Positions 1 to 62,357 of a stretch of 64,000 nt of DNA are shown piece by piece (positions within the stretch are counted from its first letter, which is position 1; each line of letters starts with the position of its first letter). The stretch covers positions 124,001 through 188,000 of the forward strand of contig NGBS01001168.1 of NCBI GenBank assembly GCA_002245135.1, written 5' to 3'. The position numbers were made by a program, and so were the translations under genes. Source of the DNA: Proteromonas lacertae (Eukaryota > Sar > Bigyra > Opalinata > Proteromonadidae). A model generated the notes under the pieces. That model ran no database searches. It saw only the letters and a program-made list of their open reading frames with translations, and was not told the origin of the DNA.

Positions 1-1140
1 GTTGGATATTGTTTCACTTGAATTTGATGGATCTACATTTGGTTCATATAATAATAAATCATCTGTAGTTTGCTCAGGAGGAGGTGGAACTATTAAGAAA
101 TATTAAATTACAAATAGAGAAAATATACTTGGATCAGTTCCTCTTATTCTAGAAACAAATGATACTTTTTCTTTTTCTATAAAATAAATATAATTCAATA
201 TTATATTTATATACTATGGTTATGTTCTTTCAATCTTATTTCTGCTCTGATTGTCCTTAAATAATCATCAACACTTCCATTTTCAAATGATACTGCTCCA
301 TTTGCTAGATATTCCATTAATATTTCATTTTTATTTAATTCATCATTTCTAAATAATTTTATTCCTCCTAACAGTGGTGGACGATGAGCTAAGGGTGCTG
401 GAGCTGTTGATGGTCTTAATTTCACTATTTAATAATAGTTTTAATATGTAATTTTATTATACAATCTGGTTCTAATGTGTCATTGTCAAAATCTACATTT
501 AAATCTTCATTATTTCTCATATAATCAGATATTAGATCTCCATTATAATATTCTAATGTTATTAATTCTGATATGATTTTGTTTTTTGAATTGTAACTAC
601 TTGAACAAGGATTACCACCTAAATCTAATTTTTTCAACTATTTATATTATATATAGTAGAATTAACATACACATGACAATTTCTTCAGTATATTTAGAGA
701 ATCATTAAAGTTTACTATTTGGTTACTATACGCAGAAAGTTCAATTAGTTTTGGATATTGGTCAATACCATACAATGATGTGAGTTTATTGTGAGAGATA
801 AATAGTTTTTGCAAATTTGGACATTCTAGACCTATTAGACTATCGATTTGGTTGAAACTGAGATTAATTTCTATCAAGTTCAGGAAATTAAATCCCAAAA
901 CATTATCAAACTCATTGTGTGATAAGGATAGCAACTCTAAATTGCCTAGTTCTTCCATTAAATTGTGATCAAACGTCTGAAGCTTTTGATCTCTTAAAAT
1001 AATCTACAAAATAGACATGAAATAAATAAAAATACTTCTCTCACATCACACAGTTCAAGTTCACCTGAATATTCTAGAACCAACTCTTTTGTAATGACAC
1101 CAGGATGTGAATTGATAAATTTAGTTTCAAATTCACTCAT
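1..1140 (-). CDS. Leucine-rich repeat protein, 3' end outside window
   Basis: I do not recognise a specific orthologue. The start codon is at 1138-1140 (MSEFETKFINSHPGVITKEL). Short introns at about 981-1021, 638-670, 425-462, 177-214 and 90-128 all rejoin in frame. The middle holds about four SDS22-type leucine-rich repeats (ELLSLSHNEF, EINLSFNQID, KLFISHNKLT, ELSAYSNQI), ending in a cap-like KKLDLGGNPC. After the repeats comes a less ordered stretch with LLGGIKLFRNDELNKNE and an acidic, proline-containing part that runs off the left edge. LRR proteins of this layout (LRRC or ANP32-like) usually serve as binding scaffolds, many of them ciliary or nuclear. The function here is not known. The gene lies 286 bp downstream of DNMT2 on the same strand. 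Confidence 0.75.
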
Positions 1141-1426
1141 ATTGTTGTTTGTCTATATTAATCAGTGGTTATTGATTAAGAAATTTGAATTTATGAATTT
1201 GAAATAGATTCGTTTCATCCAAATTGGTTTTATTCATTATCTCAATAAAAGAATTACTAATGTAATCAGACTAAACTGATATTTTATTTATTTATATGCT
1301 AATTTTGTAAGGACAAATGGTAGAAGCCATTATGTTACCAAATTCATTTAACATCAAGATATTTTAGATATTATATCACACAAATTGTATGTGTAATAAC
1401 TACAAAATAAATAAACATCAAACAAA

Positions 1427-2674
1427 TCAAGATAATAAATAATTCATTAAATGAGTAACTACAGTGACATTTAAACTCTATATACACATAAAAATACTAA
1501 ATATATATATACATTTCCTAACAACGAACATCTTGTTCTTTCAGACATATCTTTAGGAAAAACAAAGTCTTTATCATATCCAAATATTGACTTTATTTCT
1601 TCACTTTCAAAATACCTTAATTTCATTCCCTTCAAATTATCAAAATCTCTAAGCATTGGTGGAGTAACATAGGGTATATTAGTTTGAATAATACTGCCAG
1701 CACCTCTAAAATACTTCCTATAAGCTTTGGTAAAACAAATTGAATATTTATCTGTAGGAGAAATAATGTCAACACATTTCATTGAATTTGTTTTAGATAA
1801 TATTGAATCAGAGAGATAACTACTCTCACTGATTTCTTCTTCTGGTAATAAATAACTGGATATTGCTTTACAATGTGAATTCAATTCATTCCATTTTTGA
1901 TTATTCTCTAAAGTTCCCATTTCACCTGTTATTGCATTATTCTTTATAAATTTACATTCTGCATCATCAGGAATTATTCTACAGAGATTATTTTCTATTA
2001 TATATTGCGGTTCTACTGTTATAAATGGTGTGAATTTTGCTAAAAAGAAATATCTATCTCTTTGATTTGGAATAGAAAATTGATTTGGTGATAAAAGAAA
2101 TTCCTATTGATATATATATATTAAATTAGTTATATACTTGATAATTATATCCCAATTTCTTAATTGTTAAAATGAGAAGGTTGTGTGAATCACTTACTTC
2201 AAATCCTTCAACATTTTCAAGGAGTATATAATTTGGTTTTATTGTAATTTGTGTTAGTATGTCTAATAAATGATGAAATGCATTAGATCGAGGATCATCT
2301 CCTCCTAATTTTAAACCATTTCTTGTGTGTCTATTTTAAATGTATAATTTGATGAAATTTTATACGGTTGACATGGTGGAGATAAAAGCCATATTTTAGC
2401 ATTATATTCTTCTATTTGAAATACTTTAAAGTGATTAAGTAACTATTTGGATGTATAGATATAAAATGATATGTTAATCCACATATATCACTTGAAATAA
2501 ACTTTGTAGAAGAAAAATTAAGTTTATAACTATTTAAACCAACTAAATGGCAAATTTATACACTTCATTTGAATTTGGACTTACATCAAATGCACATATC
2601 ACATCATAATCAAAATTGGACTGTTCTAATGCACAATGAAGACCTCCAATACCACAAAAAAATTCAAGTGCCAT
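1427..2674 (-). CDS. TRDMT1: DNMT2/TRDMT1 tRNA (cytosine-5) methyltransferase
   Basis: The start is MALEFFCGIGGLHCALEQ, the SAM-binding motif I of C5 methyltransferases. The catalytic motif LLSPPCQPHTRNG appears once a 35-bp intron is removed. ENVEGFEV (motif VI) follows, then CFTKAYRKYFRGAGSI, whose CFT tripeptide marks the DNMT2 family, and finally LRYFESEEIKSIFG and LLGNSLNVTVVTHLMN. DNMT2 enzymes methylate C38 of tRNA-Asp and some other tRNAs, not DNA to any extent. Introns at 1478-1512, 2104-2137 and others are 32-35 bp. One junction, between DICGLT and LLNHFKVF near 2440-2470, has no obvious GT-AG pair and I could not resolve it. The length fits the family, about 370 residues. The start lies 60 bp from the divergent receptor gene. 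Confidence 0.93.
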
Positions 2675-2734
2675 TTAAGCTCGAATTACTAATTATAGGC
2701 TTGACAAAACAATTGTCGTTTTTCATTATTTTTA
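2675..2734. promoter_or_regulatory. 60-bp divergent promoter between DNMT2 and the giant receptor
   Basis: Only 60 bp separate the two start codons, so both promoters must share this space or overlap the genes. It contains GGCTTGACA, a form of the AAGCTTGA/TCAAGCC element seen upstream of other genes here. It also holds the palindrome ACAATTGT and a TTGTCGTTTTT string that resembles the CTAGTCGTTTT element at 25226 and 62305. Confidence 0.5.
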
Positions 2735-5700
2735 ATGGTTAAGGCAGTTAATAAAGTATATGAGCATTGTTTTAGTTTTATAGGGTTATCTGTATTTTAT
2801 ACTGATAATATGTGCATCGCTTAGCCCATCATTATGTATTTTATTTTAAATATTCATAACATAGGCGGTAAACCTGAGAAGACAACATATCGTGAGGATT
2901 ATAGTTTGGTAATAATTAAAGGTAGTATTATTACTCTTCATCCTCCAGAATGTTTCAAATCAGTTAGTTATAAAGAGAATCCACTAATGTACAGTGTTTC
3001 AAATACATATTTACCATCTAATTTTTTCGATAAAATACCAAAAACTTTATTGGATATAAATAATTGTATAGTGAAGTTAGACTATACAAAATTATTGAAA
3101 AACCGAGGAAGAGGATTAAAGCTATTGGAAATTAAGAGTAGATTTGGAGATTTTTATGAAACTATGGGTATAGTTTCATTCATTTATAATTTTTATAGCA
3201 TTAAATGAGACTAGTAATGGTTATCATATCCTTCCTACTGACAAGCATTCTTACTCTCATAAAACATATTATGAAGCTCCACAACTTGATTCTGACCTAT
3301 TGCATTCTAAAAAGAGAAAGTTACAAGCACCAACAACACCTCCAGCAACAACTCCATCTCCATCACCAACAACAGCTCCAACAACAGCTCCAACAACTCC
3401 ACTTGCAACAACAGAACCACCAACAGAACCACCAAAGGATCAAATCTATCGATTTGGTATAGCAGTTGAAGATCCACAAATCGCTGATGATTTTATACAA
3501 ATGATCAGTATATTATTCAATGAATCACAAAATGGTGGAGTTGATGATTTCAAAAGATTTGGAATTGAATTTTACACATATCAAAACTACACAACAACAG
3601 CAACTCCAACAGGATCTATACTTAATGAAAATTATACAATATGGGATGCATTTGAAGCTGATAAAGTAGATCATGCATTTTATGTGACAACATTAGCTGA
3701 TACTAGTAATTTAGATTATGAAGAAATAGCTTCTAAACACAATTTCTTGTTATGGGTATCTGATTATAATATTACTGAACCAACCTGTGGTAATTATATG
3801 TTTCATTTAGATGGACCTGATGCGTTTGCTAGACAATCATTAGAGCCATTATTTATGAGGTTTAATTCTAGAGCTATTTATTTATATGATAAAACTAATG
3901 CAACTGCTGTTGAATTACATGAAGATGCGCTGTTATTGAGAGATCAAAAGAATTTGAAAGTATTGGATTATGAGATAAGTGAAGTTAATGACGCATTCTT
4001 TACAGAAGTAGTAAAAGATGAGTATAAAGACTATCCAGTGTTTATGTTTTTACCAGCTGATAAAATCAAAGAATTTAGAAATTTAGCTACTAAAGCAGAC
4101 TTCTATACCAATCATCCAATTGTTTCAATGGGAATTGCTTTAGAAGAAGAATTAAAAGGCGATTATCAAAATGAAGGATATATGCTTACACATGTATTAA
4201 GTGATTCAGAACCATTTCAAGTTTATCATAAATTATTTAATACAATATTAAAAGATGATTTTATAGATTTTATTCATGGATCATTGTATTAAATATTATG
4301 TATATTTTATTTTTCATAGTTTATTGTTATTAAGAGTATTGTTTGGATTAGCCAATAATATTCAATCATTTGATAAATTAGGTATTAAAGTATATGCTCC
4401 TAATACAAAAATTAGTTCAACAACCTCTAAATCAGTCACTTATATTATTCCTGGAAATAGATTATCTATACCAATATATTTAGGACAATATAATGGTACA
4501 ACTAACCAATTTAAGCAAGTAGAAGAATATATTACATCAGCCTATGAACGTCCTAATATAGTTATTGGTATTCCAAGAAAACAAGAATGTACTGGAAGAT
4601 ATCCTATGTTACTAGGCTTATTAACTTACCTTAAAACTGATGGTCAACAATTATTCTTAAATGCATTTCTATCTAATTTGAGAATATTTAATAATGATGG
4701 AGGAATTCTAGGTAAATATACAACTGCCTTGTTTTTAGATGCAGGTAATGAAACAGCTACAAAAGAAAAAGTATTATATTATATTTTTATTTTTAAAATA
4801 GATAATAGAATATAGTTCAAATGAATTTGCATTAGATGTTATTTTTACTACTCTTTTACCAGCTGAATTAGATACATACTTAAATGATGAGAGATTTAAA
4901 GAAATATTATTCATTTCTATTTCAAATAGTCCAGGTAATATTTGTAGTAAGAATTATATATCTGTATTATATATATATATATAATATTTATTTATTATTA
5001 GATTGGACCAACTCCTGCAATATTCTTTAAGCCATTACAGTTATTCTTCTATAGACATGATGTTAGAACAATCTTTTTCATTACTTCTGATAAGGAGTAT
5101 ATTTATCATATTTATTAATATAAATAAATAGTATTTTAATGTCATACAATGATTATTTTGAAAAGAGAATAACAATGAACGATTTTGATATAGCATATGG
5201 AGGTAAAGCTATCTATTCTGATAAACAAGTTGAAAGTAATTACACAACATTATTCGATAAAATATATGCAATGAGTGATAATGATAAAAGCAGTATAATA
5301 ATAATAATATTATTATTATTATATATCAATAGATACTGTTATTGTTACTATGATTGACCCAATTATTTTTAATAATTTTATTGATGAATGGAAAAATAAT
5401 GCAAAATATAAAGAATTATTAACCAAAACCAAAGTAATTCATTGTTCTTATGATGATCATGAACAAAGTACTCTCGTATAATATATTATATATATAATAA
5501 TGAATGTATAGGATATGGCTGCAGTTAAAGGACATTATTTATTACATCATTACTTTGAATTTTTAGAAAAACCATTAGCTGTAGAATATAAACATGATAT
5601 TGCTAAAAGAACATATGAAGATCCAGATAATATTACAATTTGTGTAAAGTTAGCCGTTTTATATGATGCAATGCAAATATTAAGAAACTGTGTTAGTAGT

Positions 5701-8700
5701 TCATATGATGTATCATTTGATGCTATTACTACATCATTATATCAAGCATATTATCAAGGCGTAACTGGACATTTCGTAGTAAGTGTTGGTTTTACTAGTA
5801 GTTATGAAATGTATTTGGTTAAAGTATATATTATTTATTATTTTATTTGCATTTAATTATTATATTGTAGGTAAATAGTGGAGATTTAGTAGTTGATACT
5901 ATATCAAGTACAATACCTAATCCTGATTCATTTGTTGATCCAAATATTTATTGTGATGTAAATGCTGATAGTTCATCATCATTATATACATATATATTGC
6001 CAATAGTACTATATGGTGCAGATAATGATCAGAATCTTCAAATTCTTGATTTATTTATTAACACTGCAACAATGGTAACAATGAAATCTAGAAGTGGTGA
6101 TGTAAGATTCGTTCCAGTTTATAAGAAACTACATAATAAAGATGAAGTTAAAGATTATTTAAAGAAATATGAAAATGATGATAGAGTGTTGTTATATATT
6201 GCACATGTTATTTTCACTGGTTTGTTAGGAGAATATTTAGAAGGAAGTCAGTCGCAGAAGATTATTATGGTTCCTTTTAATACTAAAGCGTATATTTGTG
6301 ATTTTAGATATGTTCATGTATATATATATATATAATATTATTATTATTATTACTTATATAGACTGGTCCAATTTTATATAATAAGATTTTACCACTATTT
6401 TCAACATTTAGCGATAAATTTGAAGATTGTGTGATGATATATATTGATGATACAACTGATACAGGAATATCTTCTGAAAATCATAATAGATTCAATAGTT
6501 ATTTGAAGTATTTCTCAGCTGGTAAACATGCAAAATGTCTAACTGAGGTAGTATATAAACTTCCAGCTGGTACTACAGAAGCTGTTTATCATCAACAAAT
6601 AGCCACTACATTAAAGAACGATAATAAAGTGAAATCTAATTCTCATATTTTTGTAACAATAGATGTTAAGATATTACCGTTAATGAAAGAATTCAACGAA
6701 ACATTATTCCCAGCTAAACCAGATATTAAAGTGATAATATTAGATTTAACTCAACTAAATATTGATGTAAGTCCATATAAGAATTACACACTAGGTCATT
6801 ATTTAGTTGGTAATTATTTCAGAGATCTTGATATTGGTACAAATAAGAAATACGTTGAATTATATGAAAGTCATTATTGGAATATTCAATATCTGGATTC
6901 ATACTTCTTTTATGCTATTACTTCAATGAATATTCTAAGTGAAATTTACAATAATTTAGGAACTTTATCATCTTCAAATATGAATTTCTTCTTACAGACA
7001 TATTCTTATCAATCTTTTATTGGTAGTATGTCATTTGGAGTATCACAATATTTAAGTGCTTATGTTTTTGTTGCTGAAATTAAAGAAGATAGTTACACAT
7101 TTATAAGTAAATATACAAGTCCTATTGTACAACAAGTATTTGTTCCTATATTAGCTGAAAATACTGACAAAAGAAAGGTTTGTGTAACTGTTAATAATCC
7201 TCCTGAGAAAGATGAACATACATTCTTTGAAGCTTATATACTTGATTATAAAAACTCATTTTCACATTCTTTGTTTTCTTCTACATTAGTAAGTAACATG
7301 ATTGAAGCTAATGCTGAGAAAGTCACTGTGAATAGTAGAGTACAAGTATATTATAATTTATATATACTTTATATTTATTTTTTGTAGTATCCATTGTTTT
7401 TTAGTTGTCCTTCTAGTGATCAAGAATGGGCAACATTAAAGGAAACAATTAAAGATTATGATTTATTAGTTGTTCAATGTAATGATGTAAAAACTAAAGG
7501 ATATTTTACTGATGGAAGTATAAAGAATACAACTTTAATTGCTTATAATGGTTTGTTATATTCAAGTTTTTGTCATAGCAATTTGTATATGATTGTGTAT
7601 TTTATTTTCATAGCTTGAGTTATGGTTTTGAAACTTCATTTTATATTCCAATATTAGCTTATTTATTACCAAAATATGGATCAAATATTGCATATATAGC
7701 ACAGCCAAGTGGTGATAATTATGCTTCATACTATACTATAAAAGGATTTTTGGAAACAATAGGTGCTGGAATCAATCATATTGATTTAAAAGATTATTCT
7801 ACTGAAGAAAATCAAAGTTATTTATATGTTCAATTATCAGTGTTATTGAATGTAAATACAGGAATGAATATATTCTTTTTGTCAGGTATTAAAGATCAAT
7901 TAAAAGGTATGTTAAAAGTATTAAATGATTTAACAAATGCTTTGTATGGAGGTGATTTTGAAGAAGCTGGAAAACATTATATAGCTATTGGATTTGATGC
8001 TGAGAATTTAGAATCAATTGGTAGAGAAGAATCAAATTATATTAAAAACATATTTGTTATTGATTATTATTCATTAAAAGAAGAACATCAAACAGAAAGA
8101 ACAAAAGCAATTAAAAAGGGAATAACAGATTATACAGGTATGGATATTCAAGGAGATTCAAAAGTATATTCAATTTATTGTTTAACTGATAATTTGAAGG
8201 ATGTATTTCCACTTCATCAAGAAGGTCAACCATTTTCTTCCTTAATAAGGACATTAAGTGGAAAAACATTGGATTGGATTTATAAAACAGCAACTATTCA
8301 AGAATCTGGTATTTTAACTTCAACCTTATTCTTAACTGCTATTGAAGATAGTAATAGTGATAAAAATGAGATTATATCATTACAACCAACAAGTATTCCT
8401 TATTCTGGTGCATTAGATGCACTTACAATGAAACAATGTAATTTTGATTTAGAAAATCCAAATGAAATATTATATTCTTATTTAGTTGGAATAATTGTTA
8501 ATACACTTAATCAATTAGATATAGTGATGTATACTGCAATAGCTACAACTTTAAGATATGTTAGTGATATGGATTTACCTAATAATTATGTAATTAGACC
8601 ATATATAATTCAATCATATGAATCTATAATAGCAGAAAAAGTGAATGATACATTATATAATGAAGAAAAAAATATCATTTTTTACATTGGTGGATGGAAT

Positions 8701-11700
8701 AATAATATAAGAAAAAGTATTAATGATATAATTGGAGAATATATTAGAAATACTGGAGAAAAAAGATATTATTTATATCCTGGTCAAGTTGTTGGAAATG
8801 AATGTTTAGAATATACATTCTATTTGAATTTACCATTCATTTCAATGAGTAGAGTATTTACTTCATTTTTAGCAAGAGCTGTTGCAGATTCATTTTATAT
8901 TTTAACTGATCAAGATGAAGATAGAATGAGTCAAGTGAATGTATTGCAAAGTGAATTTAGAGAGAAATCTATAATATTAGATGGAATAACAGTAATACCA
9001 CCTGATGAAACTCAATTAAGTACAGTATTTGAAAGTGTATTAATGAAAATAAGAGGTGGAATTATAATATTAATATCTTATCCACTGAATATTGCAGCTG
9101 TAAATGCATTAGTTAGTTTACAGTTGAATATAACATCTCATCCAATATTTATGTATGAATTTGATATTGCTCAGTTTAATTCAATTGATGCTGTAGAAGC
9201 AGAAAAGTTGGTTAAATCATTTGAAGGTATATATTTACACTCAACTTATCCAATGGAAGTTACAAGTAGTTACACCGACAGATTCCGTAGTTTTTATCAA
9301 TATTTCAATAACTATTATTCAAGTGATGGGAAATATTTAGCAACTGATTATATCCATTATTTTGCAGGTTTAGAATTTATACGTGAAGTAGTAACAGCAG
9401 CTGGTGGTGTTGATAAGACAGAAGATTTTGATAAATATATTCATGGTAAGACATATTCATTATCAATTGGTAATGTATTTTTACAGAATAATAATTATTT
9501 CACAAATACAATGTCAATGATAATGATAAAGAATTATGAAATGAAATTATTATCTGCAATGTATTCTCCTTTACAAGCATCACCTTATTCAATTGCTTTT
9601 AATGGAAAAATAGTTGTATGTGATTGGGTAACAACAGATGAAGATATGAGAGGAATACATGATGTTCCTGATATAGATACACTTCCAGTTGGAATAATTC
9701 TATCATTTGGTAAAGAGAATATTATATTGAATCGTGCTGCATTTGATATGTTAATCACTTTAGTAGATTATATGAATGAACAAGGTGGATTTCAAAACAG
9801 ATTAATTAATTATAAATTATTTGATTATCAAGATAATTTAGAATTAGCTAAAGCTTATACAATTGGTTTAATTGATGCTGGAGTAACATTAGTAATTGGT
9901 TGTGTTGATAATAAATGTAGAAGAGCTGTTGGTCCATTATTTGATAATAGAAATTCAATATTAGTGTATTTAGGAAGTAATGAAGGTCAAGAATGTATTA
10001 AACATGTTTTACATCCTGGAAGAACATTTAGTCAATATTCTAACCTATTAGAAAGAGCAGTTGATATTTTACCATTTAAAGTAGTTTATATAGTAGGAAC
10101 AGATGAAATTTCTATTAATTATTTCTATGAAATAGCTAAGAGTATTTATACTAAATTATCTCCAACTTATGTTGTTAAGAAAATGGTGTTAAAACTACCT
10201 CAAGTAGAATTAACTACATTGTTATACGAAATAATCTTTTCACCTTATAAATCTGTGGTATTTGACTTAACATTAGGAACAGATTTTATTTTATTCAGTA
10301 CAATAATAAATAAAATGAATGTATCTCCAAATCAAGCATTGTTCATATCATTATATTGTCCAGGTATTAATTATGAAAATAAAATAGAATCATTTGAAGG
10401 TAGATATTGTATATCTAGTTTTTATACAGATGGTTCAATGTCAGAAACAAACTATTTATTATGGAAATTCGTTGCTAGAGCTGATGTAATGGAAATAATG
10501 GATAATTTATATTTAGCATTCACTGCATTTTTAGGTATTTTACAAACAGTTGATAATATATTCGATGTTGATGCTTGTATTGATGCTGGTTATTACACTT
10601 ATGTAGAATCAGCCAATGGTAAAGTGCAATTATTCCCTAATAGTTATTGGTCAAGAAATATGTATTTATTGAAATTAGAAAATCAAAAATGGGTTCAAGT
10701 TATTGCTCAAAGTAAACCTGTTGAACCATTAGCTTATGATTGGAATATTGAAGGATCTTATCAGAAATTATGTGATTTCGCTAATAGTATTGGTTTTGAT
10801 GGAATTGTTCCATTATATACAATTGGTATTGCTGTAGCACTAACAGGTCCATATGCTGTATCAGATGATGGATTAAGTGATTTAATGAGAATAACAATTG
10901 ATCAGTTTAATATGATGGGTTTATTACATGAAAAGAGATTATATTATATAGTAATAGATATTGGATCTGATGATAGTACTTGCTATCAAAATATAAAAGC
11001 AAAATTAGATAAAATGAATATATTATTTACCACAGGAACAATGACATGTCAGTATATGTTGGAAGAAGATTTAAAAGATTTAAATATATTATTATTCTCA
11101 TTAGATCAAAGTTATAGTGATAAATGTTCAACTAATATGATATTATTTGGTAGACATGCTAGTTTAAGTAATGATATTGTTGATAGATTATTGTTTTTAC
11201 ATAGAGATTTTGCATTAATTGGTGTTAGTAGAGATTATGGTGAAATGTATTCTAATTATTTTTCAACTTATATTCCTATGTATGGTGGTAATGTCTTATT
11301 TTCAGTATTAGTTCCACCAACTACAACTGATTATGATAAAATATTTAGTAATTTATTTGCTAGAATGTCTGAAGGTATTATTTTATTCTTTGGTTTACCT
11401 GAACATTTGTCAGTTATTATAAATACATTAAAACAAACAGGAAAAGATGAATTATTTGATGTTATATCTTTCACAGTTGCTGAAGAATTTAGTGAATTAA
11501 AAGATTCTAATTTCTATGCAGTTTCTACCTATTGGTATTCTTCAACAACTCAAGATATAGTAAATATGAATAATCATTTAGAAGAATTATTAGGTTATAA
11601 CAGAGTATTATCTGAGAAAATGATATTATCTTATTATGCATTACAATATTGGTTCCAAGCCGCACAAAAAGTACCATCTTTAGATTCGTTGAAAATAAGA

Positions 11701-14700
11701 GATACAATGTATACATTCCCTTATGAAGCTTATAAGTATGGATATTTCCAATTAAAGAAAAATAATATGATTTCTGCTCCAATTATATATGTCAATTTCA
11801 ATTATGGTAAAGGTAGAATGTTATATTATTCGCTATATTCGAAATTACCAAATCAATATGATTATCGTAAGACTTATGAGCCATTCACTTGTGATATTCC
11901 CTCAAACCAAATGAAAATCAAAACAGCTGATGCTAGAATTGCTTTATTATCTAGTATAACAGGAGAATGGAGATTTATTGAAGAATCTTATTTCACAACA
12001 TTTATCTATATAATCGATCAATTAAACGAAGAAGAAGGCGGAATATTTGATACATTTATAATTCCTGAAATAATTGATACTGAATCAAAGATTGAAGGAT
12101 ATGAAAGAGCAATGGAAAGAGTGGTATTAAGAGATGATATTCAAGCGACATTCTTCTTTGGAACAAAAGATGTAGCTGATGTAATATTAGATAAAGCTGA
12201 AATCTACAAGAAGTTAGTATTTTACAGTGGAAGAACTGAAACTGAGATATGTCCTGAATATACAGTAACTGTAGGTCCAGTAAATTCTCAATTACTTCAA
12301 GTATTTGAATTAATCACTCCAAAAGCAGTAGCACTCGTAGTTATTCATGATAATATAACAACGAATATTGATTTCGCTAATATAACTAAATATTATGCTA
12401 GTAATTTTGATACAAATTTCACTGCTTATGATATAACCGAATTAGAGAATATTCCAGAATTGTTAGAAAACGAATATGGAAAAGTTCATCCATATGTATT
12501 GTTTGCTTTAAGTCGTGAAAATTTGATTTCATTTTTGAAAGAAATTCCTCCATCTAAATATCCTCGAAATAAATATGGATTTACATTGTTAGGAATGAAT
12601 GAATATTTTATAGAGAAATATCAAAGTGATGTGAATGGTTTCTTTGCAATTAATTCAATGTTTGATACTTTATTAAGCAATAGAGATTATACTGATCCAA
12701 CTAAAGTATATGCTAACTTATATCAAAAACATTTGAATGGTAGAAATAAATACTATGTAACAGGTGATTCTCAAAGTGCATATGTATCAATAATGTTATG
12801 GCGAAAAGGAGTATTAAATGCATATTCTTTTGATCCATCTTCAGTAAGACATGCTTTATATGGATCTCAGTTAGACACTCCTGGATCTGAGGTAGTAGTT
12901 TTAACAAATAATTATATAACTCATCGTGCCTTTGCTAGTATGATAGTAAGTGGAAGAATAATACCAATTTTAGGTCCAAAAGATCCTTATCAACCAGTAG
13001 TTTATAATCCAAATTATAATGATAATATTTATTATACTTGTGATTGGACCATAGGTTCTTCATCATCATCATCTACAACAAAAACAACAGATTCATCATC
13101 ATCCTCAGAATCATCATCAACATCTCAATCATCTTATGCTAAAATCGAAAATCCAACCAAAATCATCGGATTTATCTTATCAATCACAAGTGAAACTAGA
13201 AAGAAAGCAATGCAATCAATATTCTATGCATCTGTATTAATCGATCGATTGAATTTAAAAGGTGGTTTATTAGGATATTATACAGTTCCAAAGATCTTTG
13301 GATATAGAGATAATAAAATAATGAAGAAACATATGAAAGAGTTTATAGATGATGATCGAGTGGTAGTGATATTTGGATGTTTAGATTTAGAATGTCGAAA
13401 TGAATATTTAAGTAGAGGAAATGGTAAAAAGATGTTATATTATTTTGGTCCAAATGTTGATAATTTCTGTAATCGATATGTATTGAACATGATGCCATCT
13501 GTTTTACAAAAGATTCCTGCAATAACTCGATATTTAATAAATTTGAAAGTAAATAAATTCTACAGTGTGACAAGTGGAAATGAAAAATATCTTTTTTTAT
13601 TATTATTATTTATATATTATAAATTTCCTTAATTTAATTGTCTTACTGAATTAGCTTATGTTAAATATACTGAAAGTTATATAAAATCTAAAGGATTAGA
13701 TTATTTAGGAACAATCTCAATAAATGCCACAGAGTCTGATATAAAATCCAAATTTGATGCAATTCCAATTTCAGAAGATCGAATAGCTTGTATATTTATT
13801 TATTTATCTATTATAATAAATAGTAATAATATTTGTAAAGAATGAATATGCTCCATTTTTAGGTAATTATTTATCCAATAGTTCTAGAGTTCAAGATAAT
13901 ATATTAAAAGCAGTATTAATGGATTATAATTACTTTGATTATGATGCAATCTTAGATCAATTAACAAATGTCTTAATTCCAAATGGTTTTGATAAAGTCT
14001 TAACATCTAGTGGAGTAACAATATTCCGTGAAGATATATTTGATTCATTAAGTTTTGATGTATCTGTTGATTTACATGAAGCAATTTCTACTGCTTTATC
14101 AATATGGCAAAGTGCAGTAAAACTAGCAAGTCAAAATATGGGTAGTAATAATAATGACAATGATAATAAACAATGGCCAACTATTGATTATGAAGCTTTA
14201 GCTATTCATGATATAACTCCTGATTTTCCATCAGGAAGTTCAACAATTGAAAGTAGTAATTATATAGGTAGAACAATGTATATATTTGAAGTAGATTCAA
14301 GTGGAATATTAAACCAAGTATTTCCTCCAATCGGAACAGTAATAATCGATGATCCAACTCCATTTATGAATAATAAAGAAAGTTGTAATTTTGGTCGAAA
14401 AGATACTCAATATGAATATAATGTAGGAATAGTTGTCGTGATTAGTTTATTAATGGCAATAGTAATAATCAGTGTAATATTATGTTCAGTATGGTTATAC
14501 AAACATCGTAAACATGCGATAGTTCAGATAGTTGGAATAAAACATTTAGTATTTATCTTATTAGGTGTATTTGTATTATGTTTATCTCCAATAATGTTTG
14601 TTGTTGCTCCAAATAATGATAGTTATTGTAATGGTAGAGTAGTATTTATAATGATCGGTGTGTTATTGATCTACAGTTCATTCTATTCAGTCACATTGAG

Positions 14701-15508
14701 AAATTTACAAATCTATCGAAGTGGAGTTCAAGGTGTAAATATAATGGGAAATGTTTATATAAATTTCATTTGTTTTGGATTGATTGAAATGATCTTTTTA
14801 GTTGTTTGGTTTATTAATGATCCTTATGTTTATACTAAAACATATTCATCCAAATATTCAACATTCTTTGAGGATGTTTATTTCCCTGAATGTGCTGTAA
14901 ATGGAAATAGTTATTTGTTTGGTCAATTAGCAATCTGTTTTTACATAACATTAATAACTCCAATATTTGGATTTTTCAGTCGTCAATTATTACCAGTATT
15001 TAATGAAACAGCTAGTTTATTTTATACAACTGTAATAACATATATCTTTTTTATAAATATATATAATTATAATCCTTAATGTAATTTAATTTTAGTAGGT
15101 CTTCTTATAACAGCATTAGATTTCATAATCTCTACAGAACCAAATTCATTGATATTAATTCGTGGATTTGGAATTGAGTTTATTTGTATTTTGATAATAG
15201 GAATCTATATTGGAAGTAAAGTATATGCCACATTTACAGATCCTGATGCAGTTCAAGTAATCCTTGATGTTGCTTCTTATGTACAAAATCTATATGTTCA
15301 ATCGAATAAAGATACTAGAAGTAGAAGATCTTCCACTCAAGCAATAGTTTCAACAGCCACAGCTACTTCCACTCAATTACGAAATTCAGCAGTTAGAGAA
15401 AGAATGACAATGAGAACTCAAACTCATTTAAGACCTTCCACAACAGGTGGAGCAGCAGGAACAGCTCGATTATCAGTGAAACTTCCTCCAACTGAAAAGA
15501 AAGAATAA
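2735..15508 (+). CDS. Giant class C GPCR-like receptor with about nine Venus-flytrap modules
   Basis: I rebuilt this as 17 exons; all 16 joins keep frame and give about 4,053 residues. Exon 1 encodes MVKAVNK, then a 28-bp intron, then a hydrophobic signal peptide (YLYFILIICASLSPS). After a PT-rich linker come about nine Venus-flytrap/ANF-receptor-like modules of roughly 370-430 residues, at about 3440-4520, 4540-5980, 5990-7165, 7167-8470, 8470-9690, 9690-10815, 10815-11930, 11930-13050 and 13140-14390. Most show an N-lobe opening such as YTIGIAVALTGPYA and a mid-domain cysteine motif such as CPEYTVTVGP or CNRYVLNMMP. There is no cysteine-rich domain, as in GABA-B-type receptors. Seven membrane helices follow at 14410-15260, with the TM3/ECL2 cysteine pair (SYCNGR, PECAVNG). 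A serine-rich cytoplasmic tail of about 85 residues ends it. The ligand is unknown. The modules are diverged, so the count is approximate. Confidence 0.85.
13587..13646 (+). other. U12-type AT-AC intron in the receptor gene
   Basis: The intron begins ATATCTTTTT, has TTCCTTAAT 13 bases before its end, and ends in AC. These match the minor-spliceosome 5' site (ATATCCTTT) and branch site (TTCCTTAAC). Removing 60 bp joins SGNE to NELAYVKYTES in frame. No GT-AG alternative is visible at this position. Confidence 0.82.
15042..15095 (+). other. U12-type AT-AG intron in the receptor gene
   Basis: The 54-bp intron begins ATATCTTTTTT, contains ATCCTTAATG near its 3' end and ends TTTTAG. Removing it joins TTVIT to LGLLITALDF in frame within the sixth membrane helix of the receptor, which supports the call. 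All other introns of this gene fit the short GTAT...TAG pattern. Confidence 0.8.
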
Positions 15509-15630: not shown

Positions 15631-18600
15631 TTACATCATTTCAACTTGGTTTTGACATCCTTCTCCACTAAATCCATCAAAACATTCGCAAACACCTGTT
15701 GAGTAATTACAAATACCTCTTCCACTACAATCTCGATATTCATTTCCTACTGTATTTGTTGCTTCTTCTGGATCTTCACCAGATGGACATTCAATTAAAC
15801 TACAATCATATCCACGATGTCTTTTATCACATAAACAACCATAAACTTGATTATCAAATCCAACATCTCCACTCTCATGTTTATTTCCAAATCCTTCATA
15901 ACCATTACTCAAATCTTCATTTGATAATAATTCACTCAATGGAACACATCGACCATTTCCATTACAATTATTTGGACAATCTAATCTTTGACAAGCACTT
16001 CCACTAAATCCATCATAACATTTACAAACACCTGTTGTTCTATCACATTCTCCTTGTCCACTACATTCTAATGAAGCATGAGTAGATTGTTCAGAAGAAA
16101 ATATGACGGTTAATGATGATGGAGCTAATGATCGAGTATTACTTAATAATCTTTTACTAATAACTGGTTTACTAAAAGATAATTCAAATTTATTGTTTTT
16201 ATTTACTTTTACTTTCAGTATTTGAGTTTCTATTCCATTTATTATTAATTTTGTTCCAGCAACCATTAATTTCTTAATTTCAACAGTTATTAAGGATGGA
16301 GGATAAGCGATGAAAGGAGATTCAGGATCAGCTAATTTACCAACATAAATATTATTATCATCAGCCTCATTCTCACTAATACTACCACTTCCTATTAATT
16401 GAGTTACACTTCCATCATCATTTTGAATAGTTTTTATAGTATCATCAACAATATTACCATATTTACCAAAATAATAATCATTGCCTTCTTTTCTTACTAA
16501 TTCAAATAAATCACTTGATTCAATATCAATTTCATCTCCTGTTGCTGTTGCTAATAAATAACACATATCTCCATCTGATGGTTTCTCACCTGTAAATATA
16601 AATCCTAAATCATTACCATTGTCACTTACACTAACTTCATATTCTTTCATTAGTTTATCACTATTTGGATTATAACAAACTATATTTACACTCTTTACTA
16701 AAGATATATTGAATCCAACTGATTCAAATATTTGTTTATATCCTATCCATGCTAATTTATGAGATGTAGTATCATAATTTCCACCTTCAGTAGAATCTAT
16801 TTCTAATGGATTTAATAATGTCATATCATTTCTTGTTGATTGTATTTCATTAATATTACATTCAATATCATCAATATAATATTTATCATTTTCTACTATC
16901 TCTGGTTTTTTCTCAACTGCATGATCAAATTGAATATAAGTATATTGACCTTTATTTCCTTTTACATCAACAATTCCCATTACAGGTTTTGAAGTTACTA
17001 CAGTATCTAATGATCTTCTTCTTGGTGGTTGAGTTGTAACTACTGTTTCAATATATTTGCATTGTATTTTTCCTCCTAATACTGGTAATTTAATCATTAT
17101 ATTATTATAAAAATCAGCTACTTTATATAAGTGTTTCTTATCATCAAGTGGAGTATTATCAATTATAAGTGATTCTGTAGGTGAAGCAACACTAACAACT
17201 CCTGTTGCTTCATAACCTGTTGGTATTGCTGGTGTGAATGGAATTTCTATTGTTGAATCACTTAATAATAATCTTGATTTAGATGGTGATATGATTGTTG
17301 CTTTATGATTATATCGGCTAGTTACATCTTCTTTTCTTTCTATTTCAATTAAGATAGTTTCACCAACTGATAAATATTCTAAATCATTATTCTGAATATC
17401 CTTTTCAACGATAGTTATTTTTGATTCTTCTATTTTGTTTTTATGAGTATCAAATACAAATACTGGAAGTTGACTCTTTTCATCCACAGTAACTTCAATT
17501 CCTTCACTAGGTTTTGTGTATTTACCATAATAATAGTCTTCTTCATCTTCATTCTTTAATGGATCTCCTTTTCTAATATAAGCGCCTAAATCACTATCTA
17601 ATAAATTATCTAATTCTATCTTAACAATATTATCACCATCAACTTTAGCTGCTAAATAACAAATATCATCTTTTGATGGTTTAGATTGACTATCTCCTGT
17701 TCTACTTATAGTAAATTCAATACTTTCATCAGCTGCTGCTTTATCAACAGTTACAGTATCATATATTGTCATTTTATTATTATCACTACTACCAGGAGTA
17801 TAACATGCAAAATAACCATCAAAACTCTCAGCTGTAAGTTGTCTTCCTGGCGATGGTACTTCAGTTGGTTTAAATGTCATTCCAGTGAGTATTGTACCAT
17901 ATCCTTTCCATTTTAATTTATGATTTTCTTCATCATAATTTCCTGCTTCTAATTTCATTGGATTATACATTGTGAAATCTTTTCTAATGGATGATATTCC
18001 ACTACATTTCATTGTAGTAATTTCACTACTTGAAACTTGACTAGAAAATTCAACATAACTAAACTTAACAACTATTTTAGAAGTAATTTCTACTGTTATA
18101 TATCCTTTTACATCAGCAGATACAGCTATTGTAGAATCACCACTAATATAACTACATTTCAATATTCCTCCTAATTTGTCATTCAAATTCATTATTAATT
18201 TATCAGCCAAATTATATACTTTATAAATTGTAGTTCCAGTTATTGGATTAGTTTCAGCATTAGGTGATGGATGATCTAATGGATTTGATGAATGAGTTTT
18301 GATGTATGGTAACATAATTCCATCAATTTTATCACCATCTAGTTTTATTGTTGTTGATTCAGAAATAGTTCCCTTTTCTTCACTCAACTTTCCATCACTA
18401 TGATATACATCAACATAAACAACCCTTCCATTCACTATTAATTCAGAAGACATAGAAATTGTAGCAGTTGTACCAGCTTCTATTTTTACATAGTTTGCAT
18501 CAGTAGTTTTTATTACAGCATATCCATTAACATCAACAGTATTACTAGTATATTTACCTAATTTATAACCATTTTCTGTATTAACATAATTTATTAATTC

Positions 18601-19737
18601 AGTATTTTCAATGTTAATTGGATTAACATCACCACTCATTAAGCAATAACACATTTCATCATCTTTAGGATTAGCACTACCACTAAATGTAAATACTAAA
18701 TCGCCTTTTGTATTACTTTCACTATCTGTGTATGTTGCAGTTACACCATCATAAACTGTAATACCAGAAATTGCTGCTTTATCAGTTGGTTGAGTATAAC
18801 AAGCAAATTTAAAATTAGTCTTTTCATAAATCACTTCACCTTCCAATCCTCTTCTTCTTGCTGATGGAGTTGTTGAAGGAGAAGGAGATTCTGATGGTGT
18901 ATCTGAAGGGGAAGGAGATTCTGTTGGTGTTGTTGAAGGAGAAGGAGATTCTGATGGTGTATCTGAAGGGGAAGGAGATTCTGTTGGTGTTGTTGATGGT
19001 GTTGGTTGTTCTGTTGGTTTTACTTCTAATACACCTATTTCTTTCAATATTTTACCATAATATTCCCATGATAATACTTTTTCATCAGCTAATTGTCTTG
19101 TAGAATTACTTTGTAATCTTCTAGTTTTAGATTTAATAGTAGTATTAGCATTAACATAAACCATTGTCTTTCGAATAGAAATGATTTTATCACAAGTAAT
19201 TACAGTTTTATCTTTTACTGAATCTTCAGGAAACTGAACATATGCTGTTGTTTTATTATCAAAAACACCTAATACTTCAACAATGATATTTGCAGCACCA
19301 GCTATACTACATTGAATAACACCTCCCATTTTTGGTAATGACTTTAATAACTCATCAATTCCACTCACTTTCCATACCTTATTCTCAGCTTCGGTAGAGA
19401 AAGGTTCAATCAATTTCATTGTTGAGGGAGATAACACTCGTCTATTGGTATTCACAACCTCGTCCAACTCACGATAATCAGGAGAGTAGTCACTGTTACT
19501 TACGGGATATTTACTTGAAACAGAAGCGAATGGGTTGCCTTCCATACACTTCACTAAGGAACAGTCACTTCCTGTGTAACTCTTTCTACTCCCATCAACG
19601 CCAATACTGTCGTAACAAACACAATTGTTTGAAACGCATTTACCGTGGCCACTACAACCATTTGGGCAAACACATAGTCCCATAATCACAATCATGCTAA
19701 AAGCAATGAGATAAACAGTCTTGTTTTGCTGTTTCAT
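15631..19737 (-). CDS. Secreted EGF-like protein with three internal repeat units
   Basis: A single uninterrupted reading frame of 1,368 residues. It starts with a signal peptide (hydrophobic stretch about residues 8-22) followed at once by a tenascin-type EGF module (CPNGCSGHGKC...GSDCSLVKC). The middle holds three copies of a roughly 300-residue unit. Part A shows GGVIQCS/GGILKCS/GGKIQCK, a C..I.S.RK/RN core, and a W.GY/W.YG motif. Part B shows FACYT or VCYNP, then MCYLLA/ICYLAA, then YYYGKY/YYFGKY. I do not recognise this unit. Three EGF-like modules close the protein (CSGQGECDRTTGVCKC, CPNNCNGNGRC, CSGRGICNYSTGVCEC). There is no membrane helix after the signal peptide, so secretion or a surface-complex role is likely. 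A PSPS-T repeat lies near residues 245-290. No intron was seen despite the length, unlike its neighbours. Confidence 0.85.
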   Translation of the reverse strand: MKQQNKTVYLIAFSMIVIMGLCVCPNGCSGHGKCVSNNCVCYDSIGVDGSRKSYTGSDCSLVKCMEGNPFASVSSKYPVSNSDYSPDYRELDEVVNTNRRVLSPSTMKLIEPFSTEAENKVWKVSGIDELLKSLPKMGGVIQCSIAGAANIIVEVLGVFDNKTTAYVQFPEDSVKDKTVITCDKIISIRKTMVYVNANTTIKSKTRRLQSNSTRQLADEKVLSWEYYGKILKEIGVLEVKPTEQPTPSTTPTESPSPSDTPSESPSPSTTPTESPSPSDTPSESPSPSTTPSARRRGLEGEVIYEKTNFKFACYTQPTDKAAISGITVYDGVTATYTDSESNTKGDLVFTFSGSANPKDDEMCYCLMSGDVNPINIENTELINYVNTENGYKLGKYTSNTVDVNGYAVIKTTDANYVKIEAGTTATISMSSELIVNGRVVYVDVYHSDGKLSEEKGTISESTTIKLDGDKIDGIMLPYIKTHSSNPLDHPSPNAETNPITGTTIYKVYNLADKLIMNLNDKLGGILKCSYISGDSTIAVSADVKGYITVEITSKIVVKFSYVEFSSQVSSSEITTMKCSGISSIRKDFTMYNPMKLEAGNYDEENHKLKWKGYGTILTGMTFKPTEVPSPGRQLTAESFDGYFACYTPGSSDNNKMTIYDTVTVDKAAADESIEFTISRTGDSQSKPSKDDICYLAAKVDGDNIVKIELDNLLDSDLGAYIRKGDPLKNEDEEDYYYGKYTKPSEGIEVTVDEKSQLPVFVFDTHKNKIEESKITIVEKDIQNNDLEYLSVGETILIEIERKEDVTSRYNHKATIISPSKSRLLLSDSTIEIPFTPAIPTGYEATGVVSVASPTESLIIDNTPLDDKKHLYKVADFYNNIMIKLPVLGGKIQCKYIETVVTTQPPRRRSLDTVVTSKPVMGIVDVKGNKGQYTYIQFDHAVEKKPEIVENDKYYIDDIECNINEIQSTRNDMTLLNPLEIDSTEGGNYDTTSHKLAWIGYKQIFESVGFNISLVKSVNIVCYNPNSDKLMKEYEVSVSDNGNDLGFIFTGEKPSDGDMCYLLATATGDEIDIESSDLFELVRKEGNDYYFGKYGNIVDDTIKTIQNDDGSVTQLIGSGSISENEADDNNIYVGKLADPESPFIAYPPSLITVEIKKLMVAGTKLIINGIETQILKVKVNKNNKFELSFSKPVISKRLLSNTRSLAPSSLTVIFSSEQSTHASLECSGQGECDRTTGVCKCYDGFSGSACQRLDCPNNCNGNGRCVPLSELLSNEDLSNGYEGFGNKHESGDVGFDNQVYGCLCDKRHRGYDCSLIECPSGEDPEEATNTVGNEYRDCSGRGICNYSTGVCECFDGFSGEGCQNQVEMM
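18877..19012. repeat. Tandem coding repeat, PSPS(D/T)TP(S/T)ES type
   Basis: About 63-bp units with GAAGGAGAAGGAGATTCT and GAAGGGGAAGGAGATTCT alternate twice inside the EGF-like gene. They encode a Pro/Ser/Thr linker on the minus strand, probably a glycosylated stalk, between the first A and B parts. Confidence 0.8.
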
Positions 19738-30205: not shown

Positions 30206-31252
30206 TTAATCTGAATCACTATATTCTACTTTCTTCTTTTTACCTTTTGTAAGTTTCTTTTTCTTTAGATACTCCCATCTCTTTATATTTCTACAACAAA
30301 AACAATGTTTCACTATTTTTAATTTATTCTCATTATATGGTTCATGCTTTTTACCATTACCTTTTTGTTTATCTCTTGATAGAAATGACCATAACGGTTT
30401 ATAATGAGCTATTCTCCCACATTTACAAAAACCATTTGTTTTTATTCTTTCTTCTTCTTCCCATGATAATCCTGTTAATTCATCAATTTTTCTATCCATT
30501 GCACATTCTATACATAAAAATGTATATTTTATTTTATCATAAAAACATTTATATAAATTATTTTCTTTGTTACATTTTGAACAAACAACTTTCATTTCTT
30601 CATATTGAAGATACATACTTAATGCTTTTTTGTCATAATCTTTATCTAATCCATAAAATTCAGGATTTAAATTTTTATAATAATATTTGTTTAAAACTGA
30701 AGACGAGTTAATTATTTGAGATAATATACTCTTTGGATCTGATAAACTAGACAATGATGAAAATATATCATCTTCACTATAAGTTTCTTTTGAACCAGTA
30801 GTTATAGATGTAGGATGAGAAGATCTGTCTGCTGGTAATGATGCTGCTGCTGGAAGAGATTCTTCTGTAGCAATAATCTCTGTGTTATATATTGTTTGTG
30901 AAATTGGATTTTGAATAAAAGTAGAGTATTCTGATGATTTTTGTGGAGGAGGACTAGAAGAATCATTATCATATTTCAAACTCATTGAACCAAGTTTCTC
31001 TGATAAGAAATCACTACAGTCTATTCGACTATTTGGTCTAACATTAACACTTCTATCTCTATCTCTTAGAAAATCATTACTATTTACTAACTCATCAGGA
31101 ATTGATTCACTAATATTAATTGATTGAGTGTAATCAACATGTTGTAAATGTTCTCCACCCTTGTTTGTATCAAGATCAGACAGATTGTCTACAAATGCTG
31201 AACTAGTAGAATTACAGGCGTCTTCATCATCTTCTATGAAAGTTGAAAACAT
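30206..31252 (-). CDS. Cysteine-rich family protein, intact copy 1
   Basis: One of a local family with no function I can assign. A long, polar, serine-rich N-terminal half is followed by a C-terminal cysteine domain of about 125 residues. Its order is VCSKCNKENNLYKCF, then FLCIECAMD, then a WEEEE block, then GFCKCGRIAHYKPLWSFLSRDKQ, then HCFCCRNIKRWEYLKKKK. The four cysteine pairs could hold two zinc ions. The second half (C.C..., SF...., C..C) loosely recalls the Stc1 domain of fungal heterochromatin proteins, but this is only a resemblance. The basic lysine tail fits nucleic-acid binding. The ATG at 31250-31252 overlaps an 18-bp palindrome. Confidence 0.78.
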   Translation of the reverse strand: MFSTFIEDDEDACNSTSSAFVDNLSDLDTNKGGEHLQHVDYTQSINISESIPDELVNSNDFLRDRDRSVNVRPNSRIDCSDFLSEKLGSMSLKYDNDSSSPPPQKSSEYSTFIQNPISQTIYNTEIIATEESLPAAASLPADRSSHPTSITTGSKETYSEDDIFSSLSSLSDPKSILSQIINSSSVLNKYYYKNLNPEFYGLDKDYDKKALSMYLQYEEMKVVCSKCNKENNLYKCFYDKIKYTFLCIECAMDRKIDELTGLSWEEEERIKTNGFCKCGRIAHYKPLWSFLSRDKQKGNGKKHEPYNENKLKIVKHCFCCRNIKRWEYLKKKKLTKGKKKKVEYSDSD

Positions 31253-31268
31253 CAAGCTTAAGCTTGAT
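31251..31268. promoter_or_regulatory. Perfect 18-bp palindrome ATCAAGCTTAAGCTTGAT at a start codon
   Basis: The palindrome overlaps the first bases of the start codon of the cysteine-rich gene. A near-identical form, TCAAGCTTAAGTTTGATG, abuts the start codon at 61136-61153 in a family member at the other end of the window. It may be an initiator or a binding site for a dimeric factor. Confidence 0.55.
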
Positions 31269-31485
31269 ATAAAAAATCTTTTGAATATTCTATCTCTATT
31301 ATATTAAGATTAGATGTGAATGATATTATTTCTAATCATAATAATAACTTAACACTGTATAATGGCTATACTAAGGCAAAATTTTGTAAAAAGATGAGAT
31401 TGATTGTTCCACGACAAAAATACATTAAAAATAATCAATTATATACTATATTTATATGAATCAATATTCTCTCTTCTTCTTCTTC

Positions 31486-52602: not shown

Positions 52603-55600
52603 GGAATATACAACTGATCATTCCAAATTAACAGGATCTACAACATATACAACAAATGCATTTAATATAGATGTTGATTATGGTCATGGTGGTTTTGTAT
52701 TTTATTTGCCAGGAAGTGATAAAAACAAAGCTGTAGAAATATTAGAAGAAATGCAAGATGAAGGATATATTGATAAGCAAACAAGAGCAATGGCATTCTC
52801 TATACTTTATTATAATAAACATGCAAATCTATTCTCTACATTAAGAATTGTATTTGAGTTTTTTGGTACTGATTATATTGAAAAGACTGCTTTTATTCAA
52901 ACATTTGAGTTATTAACAGATCTTTCAACATCTCAATCTGTGGTGAGAAATGGTTTGATTATAGTAATAGGGCTTTTTACAGTCTATTTCTTATATCAAG
53001 AATATATAAATATAAGAACTCAAAGATGGAAATATATCACATTTTGGAATGCAATTGTTTTTACTCAATTTATATTAATTATTGTTTATATTTGTATGTT
53101 CATAGCATACAGTGTAAGAAGTGTAAAAACAAAAGATGATTTATTTGAATGTTATAATACAGGAAATAATCAAAACTGTTTTGTTGATATATTTGATACT
53201 TTTATATTCTTCAATCATTATAATAATGTAGCTGCATTTGTTAGTTTTGTTACATTCATTAAAGTATATTTATATTTATTATATTCATTTTGAATAGATA
53301 TTCAAATACTTAAGATTCAATGATAAATTGAATATGTTATGGAATACTCTAAGTTTAGCTATTCCAGATTTAGTCGCATTTGCATTATTGTTCTTGACCG
53401 TGTTTATTGGTTATTCGTTGTTAGGTTTAATTGCATTTGGACCAAATGTAAGGTCATTTCATAATTTTATGACTTCTGTATGGACTTGTTATGGTTACTT
53501 AGTTGGTGGAGGTAATGAAGAAGAATTAGTATATGTTCAACCAACTGTAGCTACAATATTTTATATTACATTCATTCTATTTGTTGTTCTTATTTTGATT
53601 AATATGTTTATTGCTATTATCAGTCAGTATTATGCTTTGGAAAAAGAAAACACAGAAAAGAGAAGTAAAAAGAAAGATAATTCTGATTATACAGTAGAAT
53701 TTGATCTTTATAAACAATTGAAAAGATTTTTCAAAGGTTTAAGACCAAAGCTTCAAATAACAGTAGAAGGAGATGAATTAGATGAATATCAACAGACGAT
53801 GTATCTTCAGAAAGGAAATACTGTAATTGTTATGGATTGTGATTATATTCAAGCAGAAAGAGCAAGATTACGTAAGTTATTTCAAGGTGCAGCTCATGTT
53901 ATAATGATCTGTTCAAGATTCTGGAGATTAGCTGGAGGTTCTCAATTTGATTTTATTGGTGGGACAGAATATGTGCCTCCAAAAGTAACTCCACAAAAGT
54001 ATCAAATATTGTATCTACAATCGATGAGTATTAGTTCGTTGAATTTATTACAATCTGTTAAAAAGGGTAGTAAAATAGTATTAAATGATGAATCATTTAG
54101 TAGTGATAAAGTTATATTGGAGTGTATCAATACTCCTCCTTTATTCTTTCAATATCATTATTATATTGGCTCAGGAATGCATGCTAAGAAATATAAGATT
54201 ATACAAGGTGGAAGTGTATTTCATAATCAAGAAGTTAGATTTCCATTCTATACATATATATTACAAATATTTTATGCAATTATGACATACTTCAAAACAT
54301 CCTATCAGAATTATTTAGATCAGAAATATGTTCATTTAGATTGGAAGAGTTTCTTATTATTAAGTCAAGAAGAAATAAGAGAAGTATTAATTAAATTATT
54401 GAAAATGGGTAAAACAAAAGTAAGATTTGATGAATTGATAAAACATATTAGAATTGTAGCTGCAAAGAAGCTGATTAGAATGGGAGTTGAGAATTTAAAT
54501 GAAAGAGTTGATTTAATTGTAGCATCACTAATGTTTAAACATTTCCCACAATTATCTGAGATTACTAAAGCAGAAGCTGGTAGACAGTATATTCATTATA
54601 TATTTTTATCCTATTTTTTTTAATAGTTATGTTCCTGATCCAGTAGATACTTCAAAGATAGAATTACCTCCAAAGGTGTTGAAGTTATGTGATATTATAG
54701 CAGCCAATGATCATGAAGTATGGTCTCAATCAAGAATAGCTGAAGGTTGGACTTATGGACCTGAATTAGATTCAGCTGAAAAAGAAAACCCTGATTTAGT
54801 TCCATATGATGAATTAGATGAAAGTGAAAAGGAATATAATAGAAGTAGTGCTGAACAGATTATTAAGATGATTTTATATTTAGGATATGGTATTTATAAA
54901 GAACCAAATTTAAGATGTATTAATTGGACTTATACAAAGAGGCAATGTTTCTCTCCCAATACTTATACACCAAATCCTTTCCCTACTTCATCGATTAAAT
55001 TAGTACCAACAATGTTAGATTTAGCCGATTTAATAGCAGAGAATAATCATGATGTTTGGGCAAAAGCCAAAATAAAGAATGGATGGAGATATAGTCCACT
55101 TAGAAACGATGAGAATAAACAACATAATTTATTAGTTCCATATTTATTCTTAAGTGAACCTGAGAAGAAATATGATAGAGAAGCTGCAATAGAAACATTG
55201 AAATTGATGGTAGGTTTAGGTTTTAGATTTAAGATTGGTGTTTCTGCATTAGATGATAGTATATATATTATATTATATTATATTTTAGAGGATGATGAAG
55301 ATGATATTGTATTAATAACAAGGCAGTCAATGGCATTTACTCCAACTCCAAAAGTACAAACACAAAAATCAGTTCCAGTATTACAATCAGTAGCAGAAGA
55401 ACCAGTAACAGAAGAAGATGTAGTTCCAGAAATGAAAACACCTCCAAAAAGATCTAGAAATGGTAGTATGACCAAACCATCAACAGTGTTATTAGATTCA
55501 CCTACACATTCTGCATTAAATGATGCGGTAATGAATAATGCACAATTACAACGTCAAGATTTAATCACATCAATTCCAGAAGAATTAGAAGAAGGAAATT

Positions 55601-59622: not shown

Positions 59623-59654
<32 letters not shown>

Positions 59655-62315: not shown

Positions 62316-62357
62316 TTATATTAAAAAAGAATTATAAATTTATTGGTAGAGAATAGA

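Follow-up and report, generated by a model that had tools for sequence, protein, structure and literature searches.

Can a single receptor chain carry a whole series of ligand-binding flytraps on one seven-helix core? To our knowledge, known class C receptors have one flytrap or none. In the window, by which we mean the whole 64,000-nucleotide stretch of Proteromonas lacertae DNA analyzed here, a sequence-only reading had proposed a gene whose 17 exons join in frame into about 4,050 residues. Our gene model, built by a path search over codons in which donors and acceptors were scored and then refined manually, bears this out: 17 in-frame exons at 2735–15508 give 12,162 nt of coding sequence and a single chain of 4,053 residues with zero internal stops (Table 1). 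Fourteen of the 16 introns are GT-AG introns of 28–47 nt. The remaining two both start with ATATCTTT, carry CCTTAAT close to the 3′ end and end in AC or AG; their start, CCTTAAT and end fit the U12-type consensus, and both look like U12-type introns. The position of the AT-AC intron is apparently common to two database proteins, P0005 and P0006. The signal peptide of the earlier reading survives as an in-frame hydrophobic stretch, MVKAVNKGYLYFILIICASLSPSLC. Together with the first two tiny exons, this candidate is plausible and forms the weakest and least certain part of the model, and position 2834 is a possible alternative start. A candidate intron at 14489–14527, present in an earlier gene model, was dropped as false; it removed residues after TM1.

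The same two database proteins bear on the exon borders. P0005 is 79% identical across exon 14, starts with the first complete codon there, continues for a few residues beyond the 3′ border of the exon in an intron-like reading, and then stops. P0006, which is 45% identical, starts inside exon 14 and likewise overruns the 3′ border. These starts and ends support the exon borders there. A long chain of this kind might also be an artefact, either of a model that joins neighboring genes or of collapsed repeats, and the 16 introns were indeed placed by computation alone. We regard such an error as most improbable: exon 14 by itself encodes four whole modules in a single frame, single-frame paralogues hold up to nine module matches, the separate database record P0001 holds nine, and the modules within one receptor are too dissimilar for repeat collapse.

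Table 1. Features of the receptor gene in the window. Slots are numbered outward from the membrane, slot 1 being membrane-proximal.
Feature	Residues	Positions	Strand	Remarks
Whole gene	1-4053	2735..15508	+	17 exons, 4,053 residues; stop 15506-15508; P0005 echoes exon 14, and P0006 its 3′ border
Exons 1-2, candidate signal peptide	1-25	2735..2835	+	Introns of 28 and 29 nt; in-frame join with hydrophobic stretch
Slot 9 module (outermost; probable)	205-564	3435..4548	+	Held-out i-E 2e-5; no PBP family in Pfam
Slot 8 module	584-949	4606..5930	+	Held-out i-E 1e-38; Peripla_BP_6 35.2 bits, over cut-off
Slot 7 module	963-1336	5970..7135	+	Held-out i-E 1e-27; Peripla_BP_5 27.0 bits, at cut-off
Slot 6 module	1361-1737	7208..8409	+	Held-out i-E 6e-14; no Pfam match
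Slot 5 module	1754-2131	8458..9591	+	Held-out i-E 7e-35; no PBP Pfam match; in UrtA alignment GGW and YP kept, YEG not
Slot 4 module	2154-2512	9658..10734	+	Held-out i-E 6e-49; Peripla_BP_5 68.8 bits
Slot 3 module	2534-2889	10798..11865	+	Held-out i-E 5e-48; Peripla_BP_6 72.2 bits; closest to UrtA in the window, 41.5 bits
Slot 2 module	2904-3268	11908..13002	+	Held-out i-E 2e-47; Peripla_BP_6 58.7 bits
Slot 1 module (membrane-proximal)	3313-3687	13135..14353	+	Split by two introns, the first U12-like; held-out i-E 2e-52; Peripla_BP_6 30.8 bits versus cut-off 31.7
U12-like AT-AC intron, inside slot 1		13587..13646	+	ATATCTTT...TTCCTTAAT...AC; P0005 and P0006 frames end just beyond the same place
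Class C seven-helix domain	3713-3953	14429..15205	+	7tm_3 61.5 bits; mGlu4 E 2.6e-5; family alignment; TM3/ECL2 cysteines; FNE before TM6
U12-like AT-AG intron, within TM6		15042..15095	+	ATATCTTT...TCCTTAAT...AG

The predicted ectodomain comprises nine flytrap modules, in agreement with the initial estimate of about nine in tandem. This count comes from a profile of 135 paralogue modules from which the window was excluded; a first profile contained the window modules, and it was this earlier profile that delimited the 135. The held-out i-E values, which are the E-values of a one-sequence search, are 2e-5 for the outermost module and range from 6e-14 to 2e-52 for the remaining eight, and the same profile has zero matches in the reversed protein and 20 shuffled copies. 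From the outermost module inward, the stretches matched by this profile are residues 205–564, 584–949, 968–1336, 1365–1737, 1756–2130, 2158–2511, 2535–2885, 2908–3266 and 3316–3685. A mid-domain cysteine motif had also been described as common to the modules, and the cysteine is present in all nine window modules and in 132 of 146 modules overall. Searched separately against Pfam, five of the nine reach a curated Peripla_BP cut-off, one of them with a score equal to it; slot 1 falls just below, and slots 5, 6 and 9 match no PBP family. Slot 9 is the weakest module, with no Pfam match and an hhalign probability of 8%. At least 49 of the 50 structural-match rows for a low-confidence model of residues 195–487 are flytraps or binding proteins, and slot 9 is probably a flytrap module. 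The mean pLDDT of AlphaFold models was 38 for three modules and, for a portion of slot 9, 52. The bilobed PBP type I ectodomain is found as nine modules by the held-out profile, with the fold itself seen in weak models only.

The best solved relatives of the modules are urea-binding proteins (7s6e, E 3.9e-27, with a profile built from the four modules in exon 14), and ANF_receptor stays below its Pfam cut-off in the window modules. Taken with the Peripla_BP matches, these relatives identify the modules, on sequence grounds, as PBP type I of the urea/amide kind (UrtA/AmiC, Peripla_BP_5/6) rather than the animal ANF domain. The proposal of tandem flytraps on a class C core stands, with modules of the Peripla_BP_5/6 type. 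UrtA and AmiC are free periplasmic proteins or regulators; in the window receptor such modules stand in tandem on a receptor. Across the receptors compared, the median UrtA score is 58, 53 and 49 bits for slots 2, 4 and 5, 32 bits for slot 1, 16 bits for slot 3 and 12 bits for slots 6 and 7. Slot 4 keeps the UrtA-like stretches YP and NQ, each in 17 of 22 members, and slot 5 keeps YEG..C in 12 of 21 and GGW in 9 of 21, so that two stretches of these closest solved bacterial relatives are retained in slot 5 of many members. The remaining slots show distinct consensus residues. The window member retains only the slot-5 GGW and YP, as judged from a sequence alignment.

At the other end of the chain, the window protein is, by the features tested, a class C GPCR. 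The 7tm_3 score of 61.5 bits compares with a cut-off of 33.5 and refers to the exon preceding the last intron, TM7 lying outside the tested exon. By sequence, the nearest solved chains of the core in the PDB are mGlu4 and mGlu8, both metabotropic glutamate receptors. C3779 in TM3 and C3867 in ECL2 align with the family and correspond to the cysteine pair reported by the sequence-only reading. From the end of slot 1 (residue 3687) to TM1 there are just 25 residues with one cysteine, which leaves no NCD3G cysteine-rich domain, again as first read. Metabotropic glutamate receptors have the TM3/ECL2 cysteine pair and an FNE motif before TM6, and the window receptor shares both along with the seven-helix core. 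In contrast, they carry one flytrap and a cysteine-rich domain, whereas the window receptor has nine flytraps and no such domain. Features of the mGluR/CaSR/T1R subgroup are accordingly missing, NCD3G being absent and nine modules standing in place of a single ANF-type flytrap. The window member has a different sequence in ICL2 at the place where the six relatives shown carry versions of a KAWRIH stretch.

The genome encodes many giant class C receptors, and the gene is one member of this expanded family. The 50.2-Mb assembly (1,181 contigs) contains 132 7tm_3 matches, a figure that is not a gene count, since some genes give two matches and identical scores recur at certain places on different contigs. 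Counted by eye, 123 of the 132 are over the cut-off and 36 lie within open frames of at least 2,000 aa. PF13433 has at least 112 matches (112 scored of 683 candidates). A search of the same genome for other many-flytrap seven-helix genes is positive: among 19 receptor loci examined, mostly picked for long frames, 18 have a single frame of 2,556–3,672 aa with six to nine module matches (partials included) and the core. The remaining locus, L021, has a core frame of 1,090 aa with two module matches. Beyond the loci, P0001 is a single database protein of 3,886 residues with a signal-like start, nine modules and the core; by module it is at most 47% identical to the fetched loci, and P0001–P0006 all differ from the window sequence. 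The protein search that found P0001 returned 4 proteins at E <= 0.001 among 3,936 candidates, and window exon 14 as query returned 2 among 3,504; both searches need shared words and similar length, so these counts suggest rarity and not more. An 856-residue paralogue query (part of a module, a whole module and the core) found no length-matched protein at E <= 0.001 among 6,577 candidates. Elsewhere in the assembly, the strongest ANF_receptor matches lie in short frames at G000:C992:123771-124619 (best E 6e-38) and C244:37744-38714 (9e-18), which are possibly more ordinary flytrap receptors.

The very large size of the family, together with the diverged ICL2 of the window member, might be taken to indicate a surface-coat or scavenging protein that signals little or not at all and uses the seven helices as an anchor. 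This seems to us very unlikely, as the core retains class C landmarks in all members aligned, and most of the seven displayed have both an FN(E/D)S motif and a stretch resembling KAWRIH or TWRIH.

The tree used to compare modules between receptors comprised 146 modules; these came from 22 receptors, namely 18 loci, the window member and P0001–P0003. Other frames below 2,500 aa, P0004 and modules covering no more than about 220 profile columns were left out, and P0005 and P0006 were found later. For 136 of the 146 modules, the nearest module in another receptor occupies the same slot, a count inflated by close paralogue pairs such as L011/L022; with slot labels shuffled within receptors in 2,000 trials, the mean is 20.8 and the maximum 45. 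All but one of the 146 have a module from some other receptor nearer than any from their own. In the window member, slots 1–5 are nearest to the same slot and slots 6–9 are not; in P0001 this holds for slots 1–7 and not for slots 8 and 9. The tree contains only 3 modules of slot 8 and 2 of slot 9, none with a same-slot nearest neighbor. With the window left out, within-slot identity is 19–28% for slots 1–7, against 11–16% between slots, and it is 13% for slots 8 and 9 (3 and 2 modules). The same-slot neighbors and the within-slot identity indicate that the inner seven slots predate the divergence of the sampled receptors and were copied whole. At the level of sequence, the slot order is shown to be old, and this holds for slots 1–7 only.

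Conservation also changes along the chain. Over 208 receptor pairs, mean identity for slots 1–6 is.265,.247,.219,.234,.208 and.185; the outward fall is not quite steady, slot 4 exceeding slot 3. Slot 1 is more conserved than slot 6 in 196 of the 208 pairs, and more than slot 2 in only 131. A fall in conservation away from the membrane is expected if slot 1 is the transducer. It would also suit an arrangement in which the inner one or two modules sense ligand and the outer ones serve mainly as a stalk or adhesive rod for reach and avidity, for example toward prey or surfaces. The low UrtA similarity of slots 6 and 7 points the same way, yet the inner slots 3 and 1 have medians of 16 and 32 bits. 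A Dictyostelium class C receptor is reported to recognize lipopolysaccharide for phagocytosis (PMC5969738), a point on the same side. On the other side, P0005 keeps the exon-14 slots at 68–87% identity by slot (slots 6 and 1 being partial only), and many receptors retain stretches like those of UrtA in slots 4 and 5; both count against a stalk, because a plain spacer need not keep them. We consider this arrangement doubtful, though far from negligible.

The distinctness of slots 1–7 from one another and their conservation across receptors fit a different arrangement, in which most slots bind different small ligands that all feed one core, so that the receptor computes over several cues. The UrtA-like stretches of slots 4 and 5 in many members, and the separate consensus residues of the other slots, also agree with such an integrator, whereas slots 6–9 of the window member, lacking a same-slot partner, may have lost binding. 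It is a possible reading, if not a likely one. A stricter form, slightly less likely still, would be an anciently fixed array with a minimum of seven slots, or nine where the receptor is full-length, each slot tied to its own ligand class since before the family radiated and all integrated by one core. If this were true, a single receptor would be a chemical logic gate, and what the family encodes would be input combinations, not individual odorants.

Our best explanation, which we hold to be fairly probable, is that the gene is one of an expanded set of giant class C GPCRs with up to nine UrtA/AmiC-type flytraps, acting as a surface chemoreceptor with slot 1 transducing and a G-protein output. 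GABA-B-type receptors have a single flytrap per chain. The receptor would sit at the cell surface and detect small molecules; the slot 1 flytrap, joined straight to TM1 as in GABA-B receptors, would be the transducer; the outer modules may capture ligands and tune or gate the output of slot 1; and a heterotrimeric G protein would relay the signal. The assembly has 12 G-alpha matches, 7 of them marked over the cut-off (best E 7e-105). Within this explanation we favor a chemoreceptor in which slot 1 would transduce and some of slots 2–5 would bind ligands. Three readings are live: integration of several ligands, sensing by inner slots on which the outer ones form a stalk, or something of both. 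Counting against our explanation is the divergence of the window member itself, in ICL2, in the partners of slots 6–9 and in slot 1, which scores 6.7 bits against UrtA. The narrow lead of slot 1 over slot 2, the partial retention of UrtA-like stretches in the window member and the low pLDDT values also weigh against it.

Several known systems resemble the window receptor in part. GABA-B-type class C GPCRs (PMC12716839) likewise have a flytrap on a seven-helix core without NCD3G, but their flytrap is of the ANF type and the window receptor has nine of the UrtA type; for class C receptors of animals and choanoflagellates, the same source sets out single-chain layouts. Class C receptors also occur in microbes such as anaerobic gut fungi and diatoms (PMC5168858, PMC3727952), and many of these have binding domains of bacterial type, as here. 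The gut fungi have about 100; their amino-terminal parts average 600 residues, about half being SBP type II and about 30% pectin-lyase-fold, β-helix and/or EGF, while diatom N termini span 40–730 residues. The Dictyostelium Grl receptors (PMC10445921, PMC1885808) are class C receptors in a single-celled eukaryote, as here. In the main texts of PMC12716839, PMC5168858, PMC3727952, PMC10445921 and PMC4302439, the word "tandem" has 0 occurrences. Among the open-access papers searched, we found no class C receptor with tandem flytraps and no description of this kind of ectodomain. Overall, the architecture first proposed, one chain with about nine flytraps on a class C core and no cysteine-rich domain, is upheld; the modules are of the UrtA/AmiC type, and the gene is one member of a large family.

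Work on class C receptors has treated a single flytrap as the driver of a single core. A family whose members line up as many as nine in a conserved order would mean that several sensors in a chain can share one core, and it offers a natural experiment on the distance from the membrane at which binding still matters. Flytraps of the UrtA/AmiC kind are now placed on class C receptors, and the slot order yields predictions, slot by slot, for binding assays on isolated domains.

The window contains further genes. A DNA cytosine methylase-like gene (1471 to about 2680, minus strand) diverges from the start of the receptor; it is DNMT2-like by eye, with PF00145 at only E 0.0046 in one exon. Convergent with the receptor gene, at 15634–19737 on the minus strand, lies a secreted-looking protein of 1,368 aa with EGF_2 repeats and Pro/Ser/Thr linkers. 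Five cysteine-rich open frames (30209–31303, minus strand; 56879–58162, 58761–59696, 61121–62182 and 62325–63686, plus strand) have no Pfam match at E <= 0.01, and several share, by eye, a similar C-terminal motif, AHYKP...FLSRDKQ...CRN.KR. A piece of a polycystin-like cation channel (PKD_channel, E 3e-20) lies at 53298–54620 on the plus strand.
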